Under the pieces are notes generated by a model. The model worked only from the letters and a program-made list of their open reading frames with translations, was not told where the DNA came from and did no database searches. The translations under genes and the position numbers were made by a program. A stretch of DNA of 64,000 nucleotides from Trematomus loennbergii (lineage: Eukaryota; Chordata; Actinopteri; Perciformes; Nototheniidae). The stretch covers positions 310,001 through 374,000 of the forward strand of contig JAAOOA010000062.1 of the NCBI GenBank assembly GCA_012861695.1, read 5' to 3'. Positions 20,601 to 23,600 of this stretch are shown in pieces (positions within the stretch are counted from its first letter, which is position 1; the number at the start of each line of letters is the position of its first letter).

Positions 20601-23600
20601 CTGCCACTGAGGGACTTCCGGGTCATTTCACTCCGTTAGGAAGGTTCCTAAGCTAAATGGACTATTCGACTGCAGCCCATGTCTCCCTTTGTCCTGTGCC
20701 AGTTCGTCTTGTTTCATGTTAGTCTAGAGTCAGTGTTTGAAGCCAAGACCCTTTCAGTTATTTCTCATAGTTAGTTTATTTAGTCTTTGTTTTTGCAGTT
20801 CAGTTTTTGCTAAGTTTTTCCTCTAAAAGAGTGATTTTTGTTGTACTTTGTTTTCTTCTTTTATTAAAGACTTTCTGAGTTTTTAACTTTGTCTTGAGTC
20901 GTGCATTTGAGTCCAAGTAATGTGTCTTGTTCCTCACAGAGACTGACCTTAGTGGACTCCAGAGACTGACCTTAGTGGACTCCAGAGACTGACCTTAGTG
21001 GACTCCAGAGACTGACCTTAGTGGACTCTAGAGACTGACCTTAGTGGACTCCAGAGACTGACCTTAGTGGACTCCAGAGACTGACCTTAGTGGACTCCAG
21101 AGACTGACCTTAGTGGACTCTAGAGACTGACCTTAGTGGACTCCAGAGACTGACCTTAGTGGACTCTAGAGACTGACCTTAGTGGACTCTAGAGACTGAC
21201 CTTAGTGGACTCCAGAGACTGACCTTAGTGGACTCTAGAGACTGACCTTAGTGGATTCCAGAGACTGACCTTAGTGGACTCTAGAGACTGACCTTAGTGG
21301 ACTCCAGAGACTGACCTTAGTGGACTCTAGAGACTGACCTTAGTGGACTCTAGAGACTGACCTTAGTGGACTCCAGAGACTGACCTTAGTGGACTCTAGA
21401 GACTGACCTTAGTGGACTCCAGAGACTGACCTTAGTGGACTCTAGAGACTGACCTAAGTGGACTCTAGAGACTGACCTTAGTGGACTCCAGAGACTGACC
21501 TTAGTGGACTCTAGAGACTGACCTTAGTGGACTCCAGAGACTGACCTTAGTGGACTCTAGAGACTGACCTAAGTGGACTCTAGAGACTGACCTTAGTGGA
21601 CTCCAGGCCCCGGGCTGGCCTCTTGCTGGCCACCTGGTTCTTCAGGTCTCTGATCTCAGCCTCCAGCAGCTGGATCACCTCCTCGTAGTCCTGCTCGGCG
21701 CTGCTGGGCTGTCGCTGCCCCCCGCCTGCCCCCCCAGCCGCTGCCCGGCCTCTGCCTCGGCTGCCTGCAGGCGGCTCTTCAGACGGGCGTTCTCCTCCAC
21801 AGTCAGACCTGCTTTCTGTGGAGGACAACAGAATGGTAAATACATTCATAATGGTAAATAGAATGTATTATATAACGCTGTACAGTCTTTACCACCTCTA
21901 AAACACTTCTACATCATTCAGCATTCACTCATTCACACACATTCAGGCTCCGTTTACACGGAAACGAAAACGAACAGAATTCAATATCAAAAAAGTCTTC
22001 CGTCCACACGGAATCAGCTACAGAAACGTGTCCACACGAGACCGCTCGACCCGCTGGAGACGCTGTAGCACATATGCCGGGCCTGTAAGTGGTGCTGTAC
22101 TTGAAGTACTTCCGCCACAAAATACACCAAAAGCAGCAAATAAGACCCTCCCGAGCATGGTTGCCCTTCTGTTTATTCTCCGCGGTGGATTTAGCAACAT
22201 GTAGTTCATGTAGTTCTCCATGTCCACTTGTTGCTGATGGTTGTGGTAGAGGAGCTGTAGATTTGGGTGAGCAGCAGAGGTGGGGAGAGGCAAGGCTCTG
22301 GCTGTTTCGCAGGCCTCTTTTTTCAGCCGGGTATTGTTTGAAATGTATTGATTCCGATTCCGATTCCGGTTCTGCTTATCGATTCCGGTTCTTATCGATT
22401 CCCCGTTTCGATTCCAAAATTGTAAAAGAAAGAGGTCAAACGTTTAGATAACAAAAATATCTTTATTAATTTAAGCTTTAACTGACATTTTTACAAATAA
22501 AAAATATACATGCAATACAAATGTATTGCACAATAGCTGTGCTTTATTTTAACTGAGCTATGCCTGTGGCAAGCTATTAACAGGCATTACATTGTGCCTT
22601 GTCTTTTTCTTTTTTAGTGTAGTGGAGCCTCATTTTAGAGCGTTTACCGCCATCCATCTTTGGTGTCTACGGGAGGGCGGGGGGAGCCTCGCTGCGGGGC
22701 AACTGTGGACCTCTGTGCCTGTCAGCGCAACTTACATGATGCCGTTTAAAAAAATGGAGGGCGGTGCCGGCCGTCAGCGTACCGAGCCGGCCGTCAACGG
22801 CCCGCTGACGACCGGCCGTTCTGTGATTCTCCAGAACACACAGATGACCAGTCCGCCGCTGAATTCCACCGGGTCGCCGCGGCGCAGACGGACCAGGTGG
22901 AATACAGGGTCTACCGCGTTTAGGAACCGTTAAGCAGAACCGTTAAGCAGAACCGAAATTGTGTATTTTGTATGGGTACCTGGTACCCGGCATTTTCTTA
23001 TCGGTTCTCATCTGGAACCGAGTTTCGGTTCCCAACCCTAGTAATGAGTGACCCGACAGTAAAAATAAACATATTTATAACTAGTTTAGGTAGTTTGAGA
23101 GGTAATTAAAATAGCTAAGGGTGATGATCTAACTTGAAGTGTGTGTTTTGCTCCGCTCACCGCTCCATCACAGCGGGCGGAGCTGCAGGTTATCATGCAG
23201 AGCTGCGTGTCTCCGTCAGCAGCAGCTGATCTCTGATCTCTCTCTCCTGTCCGATTAGACTTCACTCGCGTTTATGTCCATATCGATCAGATCTAGCTAG
23301 TTCTAGCTAATGATATGACTGCCTGCGTGTCAAAGGACACCTAAACAATAAGCGACATTTTGACCGGAGAGATTTAGATTTGCCGGTCTTCAGCATATTT
23401 ATTTATTTTATTTTACCGGCTAATGGAAACTCTGCCGTGCGGGGGGGTCTGCTGGAGGCTCCTGCTGGGTGCACTGTCCTGCGAGATACCGGGACCTGGC
23501 TCGAAACACTCGGAACACTGTTGTTGTTGTTGGCGAAACACATCAGCAATGACGCGGGTGGCACGGGGGTGAGCAGGAGAGGTGGGGAGAGGCGGGGCTA

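Follow-up and report, generated by a model that had tools for sequence, protein, structure and literature searches.

In the window, here the whole 64 kb stretch of DNA analysed, the minus strand encodes stxbp4 (syntaxin-binding protein 4), and as judged from sequence this gene carries a clean donor-repeating minisatellite of the ABCA7 kind, a "splice-donor VNTR". The explanation towards which we lean is that this intronic minisatellite arose by tandem duplication of an stxbp4 exon-intron junction, and that its effect would be to lower the output of the gene, to make in-frame loss of the exon that follows more frequent, or both. The array occupies positions 20937 to 21606 (minus strand) and consists of 29 units of 23 bp (20940-21606) followed by three bases (CTG) of a next unit, as found with TRF (period 23, 29.1 copies, 95% matches, 0% indels, score 1221) and by listing the units. 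Each unit is made of 15 nt of exon end and 8 nt of intron start, and unit 1 (21606-21584) comprises 15 nt of exon encoding LESTK and 8 nt of intron (GTCAGTCT). The donor GT is in register in 29/29 units and all 28 steps measure exactly 23 bp, with the last exon base of the donor-like sites at 21592, 21569 and onwards to 20948 (minus strand). The authentic donor, AAG/GTCAGT (21586-21594, minus strand, last exon base 21592; slashes mark splice boundaries), was assigned from fish models and as the best GT at the exon end. It is followed by 28 further copies in 23-bp steps (20942-21571, minus strand; 26 with CACTAAG and 2 with CACTTAG). Every unit thus carries CACT[A/T]AG/GTCAGT, in the form CACTAAG/GTCAGT in 27/29 and CACTTAG/GTCAGT in 2/29, and neither 13-mer was found outside the array in the 64 kb. 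The earlier note had described the unit as the exon end with its authentic donor, most copies being identical to it and a few carrying CACTTAG; TRF and the unit listing confirm the description, and the copies with CACTTAG are exactly two. It had also counted about 29 units after the real donor. There are 29 sites in all, but the authentic site is among them, so that 28 follow; and the array, which had been placed at 20937..21600, begins there but ends at 21606, at the first of the 15 exon and 8 intron bases of unit 1.

Four types of unit are present, of which 14 begin with CTGGAG, 12 with CTAGAG, 2 with CTAGAGTCCACTTAG and 1 with CTGGAATCC. Variation is confined to 3 of the 23 unit positions, one of them within the donor 9-mer, and it does not point to selection acting on the donor, although three variable positions give little or no power to see it. 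Units 1-5 equal units 6-10 in type and order, and the array has a weak five-unit pattern (units five apart match in 15/24 cases; shuffling gives P 0.009, before any correction for the 11 lags), which together fit growth by blocks of several units, the latest of it perhaps on the exon side. At the distal junction (20925-20939, minus strand) the last unit runs into CTGTGAGG, which repeats the CTG that starts many units. Since CTG stands on both sides of the founding 23 bp, slippage between the two is a plausible start of the array, and the repeated CTG is a candidate slippage microhomology. An origin of the array as a transposon copy was rejected, as blastn of 18600-20936 against the window returned no other copy at E <= 1e-3.

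The exons of stxbp4 run from 62064 down to 14583, and most are 90-100% identical inside the exon to Pagothenia borchgrevinki model P0121 (tblastn), while the exons detected with the human STXBP4 sequence follow one another in the same order. The window is closest to notothenioid fishes, with 36/37 residues shared with Dissostichus eleginoides model P0005 at the end of exon 21815-21592 and 38/39 over the whole of exon 18488-18372. Pagothenia and Cottoperca belong to the Notothenioidei, as do Dissostichus and Chaenocephalus. The coding exon whose 3' end is array unit 1 (21592-21815, minus strand; tblastn with P0121 and P0125, and human STXBP4) has the acceptor ccacag/AAAGCA and measures 224 nt in the assembly, where one more base would make it divisible by three. 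A run of six G (21718-21723) is where a frame like that of Pagothenia P0121 needs one more base, and the assembled frame after this run stops at 21675-21677, before the array. The missing base, which falls upstream of the array, may reflect a sequencing error or a genuine frameshift; in the latter case the protein would already be truncated before the junction. At the position of the G-run, Cottoperca has a short coding repeat (GQRQA), and the icefish model differs.

The junction was compared across 132 fish models, 14 from a first list (the best 120 of 303 matches) and 118 new ones from a third search (the best 120 of 417). From the first list 19 fish proteins were taken, of which P0006, P0007, P0009, P0013 and P0018 were excluded as not reaching the exon. 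Many of the 132 rows are isoforms of one species, and they are gene models rather than RNA. Among these listed matches, parsing of the exon end gave 92 short forms, 19 with a V[SN][LFS][KR]Q extension, 4 with an ASLKQ extension and 17 unparsed. When the unparsed matches were read by eye, 12 proved to contain the two exons and the same boundary region between them. Of the other five, P0020 has other sequence inserted, and P0002, P0017, P0027 and P0042 are without the next exon. The short-form rows P0202 and P0206 end in PKVKQ or PKIKQ, which may be a third form. The same exon end is present in Dissostichus eleginoides and Pagothenia borchgrevinki (LDSTK/EDV) and in Cottoperca gobio (LESTK/EEV); carp P0017 and icefish P0027 join the TK of the exon directly to a later exon. 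By this comparison the stxbp4 donor at exon 21815-21592 is judged to be old. The array very likely grew out of the junction rather than giving rise to it, because its units copy the authentic exon end and donor and relatives share that exon end. The same exon end in most of the 132 listed models upholds the earlier claim of growth from an exon-intron junction. The reverse case, an exon end made by the array, was rejected because ends of the EATK or ESTK type are widespread (92/132 listed models in the short form) and because models of Cottoperca, Clinocottus, Anarrhichthys and Cyclopterus have LESTK as well.

Among the matches listed, V[SN][LFS][KR]Q extensions occur in 19/132 models from eight species, with a K/VSLKQ/E-type extension in P0182, P0187, P0189, P0196-P0200, P0208, P0210, P0211, P0229, P0231 and P0233-P0238; P0214-P0217 are also listed with the extended percomorph models. 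The ASLKQ extension is found in 4 listed models, those of Chaetodon auriga, and Parambassis ranga is represented among the matches listed by 3 short and 7 long models. Other percomorph fishes therefore apparently have two in-frame donors 15 nt apart at this exon end. An alternative acceptor could also supply the extra residues, but a donor is the preferred source because the variable residues follow donor constraints: V followed by S or N after K fits a GTx-A(G/A)T donor, and A in its place fits GC for GT. The VSL of the extended models equals GTC AGT CTC in the window, which implies that both the donor sequence and alternative donor choice exist outside the array. A second donor of the K/VSLKQ/E type is absent next to the junction in the window, and the array occupies that place.

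Use of any downstream donor would give a truncated protein. The first unit past the junction contains an in-frame TAG (GTC AGT CTC TAG; 21580-21582, minus strand), identified by translation and by the stop-to-stop open reading frame 21580-21867. Reading through the junction gives GLESTK VSL and then the stop, which follows after nine intron bases. With the exon frame set by conservation, each of the 29 donors was joined to the next exon and translated, and only donor 1/29 was open into that exon; as the TAG is in frame, every product of a downstream donor (28/28) would end there. An idealised array of the commonest unit was open at 0/9 lengths tested. That every third site keeps the frame, as had been proposed, holds as arithmetic only, and a frame-preserving ladder of donors for a full-length protein is ruled out by the 28 closed outcomes among the 29 translated. 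A search of the idealised array peptide against relatives gave no match at E <= 1 among 116 candidates, which says little because open stretches in the array are short. Downstream donors would give mRNA with an early stop, most of which would be lost to nonsense-mediated decay.

The donor copies were scored with a donor matrix and a U1 5' end taken from background knowledge. The donor AAGGTCAGT scores 8.4 against 12.6 for the consensus. No GT at its exon end scores higher, and the other stxbp4 donors score about 3 to 10; outside the array, 155 of 8384 GT 9-mers on both strands score at least as high. It is therefore a donor of middle strength, with C at +3, and its predicted duplex with U1 is about -6.2 kcal/mol per site against -11.8 for the consensus CAGGTAAGT in the same calculation. 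In local RNA folding, the donor copies have a mean unpaired probability of 0.036 against 0.011 for the exon. Among random minus-strand 9-mers the mean is 0.089 and the median 0.022, with 39% at or above 0.036, so that the idea of unusually open donor sites was dropped and their accessibility is taken as ordinary. Middle strength and ordinary accessibility make the sites usable and not exceptional.

The next stxbp4 exon (18372-18488, minus strand; tblastn and sequence) is 117 nt long, has the donor CAG/GTCAGA and is in phase 0 at both ends, so it can be skipped in frame. At its acceptor, a (TG)54 (18492-18599, minus strand; TRF and sequence) replaces the pyrimidine tract, and the boundary reads gtgtgtgtcag/GAGGAT, the TG repeat being followed directly by cag. 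A further (TG)27 (16041-16095, minus strand) stands at the acceptor of the stxbp4 exon from about 16034, and (TG)n repeats thus abut the acceptors of two exons out of three in succession (18488-18372 and about 16034). TDP-43 binds UG repeats and, near CFTR exon 9, silences the exon (PMC3985631). By analogy, regulation of skipping of the TDP-43 type is possible at the (TG)54 and (TG)27 acceptors. The likeness to CFTR lies in a UG repeat adjoining a skipped exon, and it concerns the (TG)54 of the neighbouring exon, not the array (PMC3985631). If UG silencing is valid in fish, exon 18488-18372 would be weak even without the array, and the effects of both elements could combine. Among the 132 listed models, the next exon is absent in four when read by eye (P0002, P0017 from carp, P0027 and P0042). 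P0002 and P0042 have other sequence in its place, and P0027, from the icefish Chaenocephalus aceratus, passes from STK straight to NVHKV. The exon is held with variant residues in P0179, P0180, P0181, P0207, P0209 and P0219, and it is included in the Dissostichus, Pagothenia and Cottoperca models. Its loss in the icefish model fits skipping but is no test of it, since the carp model also lacks the exon and those three notothenioid models keep it.

The closest known counterpart is the VNTR in intron 18 of ABCA7, which has a unit of 25 bp, is present in 23.7 copies in hg19 and includes the exon-18 donor (PMC5954066). Single-unit retention through the next donor amounts to 2 +/- 1%, leads to a premature stop and is unchanged by VNTR size, whereas skipping of exon 19, an in-frame loss of 44 aa, becomes more frequent as the VNTR lengthens (p = 3.24e-13) and expression is lower with a larger VNTR (PMC5954066). 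The VNTR is a reported risk factor for Alzheimer's disease, and for the cause of the exon skipping the authors give candidate factors only (PMC5954066). Both loci have a short minisatellite at a donor that repeats the donor (25 against 23 bp, about 24-29 reference copies), in both, splicing at a later copy lengthens the message by one unit and brings in a premature stop (for stxbp4 as a predicted coding consequence), and in both the following exon can be lost without a change of frame (PMC5954066). They differ in gene, unit and lineage. In addition, the ABCA7 repeat begins at the intron GT while the stxbp4 unit also holds the last 15 coding bases, and function has been shown for ABCA7 while the stxbp4 array is known from its sequence (PMC5954066). 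The earlier picture of a ladder of equivalent donors finds a partial parallel here, since the human ABCA7 layout does use the next donor at a low level (PMC5954066), but the in-frame products that had been attached to it fall away.

Other systems are more distant. Internal tandem repeats of human segmental duplications are likewise boundary minisatellites (average 30 bp) that can alter splicing, but they belong to recently duplicated genes, have an average of 4 copies and are said to make novel introns (PMC2812944). In intron gain by AGGT duplication, a unit holding AG/GT yields paired potential splice sites when duplicated, and the source cites genes of fission yeast in which a 24-bp AGGT segment is repeated (PMC4974935). 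For stxbp4, by comparison, it is an existing donor that was multiplied, and a new intron is not indicated; gain of the intron by tandem AGGT duplication was set aside because the boundary is already at the same place in the relatives' models. VNTR6-1 in TERT intron 6 is also an intronic VNTR (38 bp) whose length shifts isoforms, but it is reported to act as an expandable G-quadruplex and not by donor repetition (PMC11830802). A literature search with most subscription journals outside its reach, in sources seen in part, found no report of the stxbp4 array or of a donor array besides that of ABCA7.

With ABCA7 as a guide, the effect of the array on stxbp4 may be pictured as follows. Tandem duplication of the real exon-intron junction would have started the array, and U1 should be able to pair with any of the donor copies. 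The first donor, which defines the exon, would give nearly all productive mRNA, while a minor part of splicing, at downstream copies, would yield mRNA with a premature stop, which nonsense-mediated decay would probably remove. What is most likely to be measurable is a lower output and/or more in-frame skipping of exon 18488-18372, with its acceptor already set against (TG)54, and not a ladder of proteins; this effect would be expected to grow with copy number.

The array is not the only large repeat of the gene. A minisatellite of 2 kb with 96 copies of 21 bp (54168-56165) starts 21 bp past the donor of stxbp4 exon 56310-56186, and its unit CCTCCACACACACCTGTACAG (minus strand) ends like a weak acceptor. 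Another, with 14 copies of 35 bp and runs of G (57153-57662, minus strand), starts 32 bp past exon 57855-57694, an exon that is present in the Pagothenia model and not in that of Cottoperca and is broken by a frame change in the window. Of the four stxbp4 minisatellites with a TRF score > 300, all but 24714-24913 come to within 35 bp of a donor at the edge that faces it, namely the array, with the donor inside unit 1, and the two just described. Under uniform random placement, at least three of four near a donor has P 6e-5, in a post hoc calculation on one gene with exons included; without the doubtful exon 57855-57694, at least two of four has P 0.0034, with the same reservations. A CA repeat (35270-35392, minus strand) starts about 8 nt past the donor of stxbp4 exon 35497-35401. 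A dispersed repeat family has three copies in the window (23041-23286, 4601-4786 and 52702-52891; pieces 88-98% identical), with more diverged relatives around 22051-22192 and 23566-23785.

Several other explanations of the array have to be weighed. It is quite possible that the array is an inert passenger, born by slippage and removed with its intron, in which case the first donor would win by exon definition and no measurable effect would arise. The minisatellites at 54168-56165 and 57153-57662, just inside stxbp4 introns, make such arrays look frequent here, and unit variation, with its little power, shows no sign of donor selection; however, ABCA7 with nearly the same layout shows length-dependent effects (PMC5954066), and the array at 20937-21606 copies a true donor, unlike the other two. 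A role as a sink or decoy for U1 snRNP, which would be titrated by the array or held there against premature polyadenylation, seems improbable. It would draw on 29 close U1-complementary sites, each with the predicted duplex of about -6.2 kcal/mol, but the sites are weaker than consensus, and the pre-mRNA of one gene is unlikely to titrate an abundant snRNP. The sink proposed in the earlier note thus gains no support from sites that are each only of middle strength, with C at +3.

We give similarly little credence to an artefact of assembly or sequencing in the copy number, with few real units. Tandem arrays are often mis-sized in assemblies and the adjoining exon has the possible homopolymer slip at 21718-21723; against this, the unit variants are interspersed and follow the weak five-unit pattern, as expected of a real array. 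Least probable of all is a productive ladder, in which several array donors are used for a graded set of stxbp4 proteins: the donor copies are identical and alternative in-frame donor choice appears at the same exon in other fishes, but the TAG at 21580-21582 leaves 0/28 downstream donors open, with a truncated product as the one that could still be made.

An extension of the favoured reading, of tandem duplication with an effect on output or skipping, is more speculative, and we think it rather unlikely. Two elements that may vary in length, the donor array and the (TG)54, stand at the two ends of the stxbp4 intron, and in notothenioids they might together set, as a heritable dial, how often the 39-codon exon is skipped in frame. 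The array might also homogenise the last five codons of the exon, so that a minisatellite would be writing part of a protein. LESTK is found in the window and in the Cottoperca, Clinocottus, Anarrhichthys and Cyclopterus models, and LDSTK in three closer relatives, Dissostichus, Pagothenia and Chaenocephalus. The simpler reading is that LESTK, which Cottoperca also has, is merely a retained older state, and its presence in several other fishes slightly lowers the odds for the dial and homogenisation.

The clustering of large minisatellites just inside stxbp4 introns may point to a shared way in which such arrays arise close to donors. As an independent case in fish, the stxbp4 array would serve as a natural replicate of ABCA7, by which it may be asked whether any donor array causes the effect or only the unit of ABCA7.
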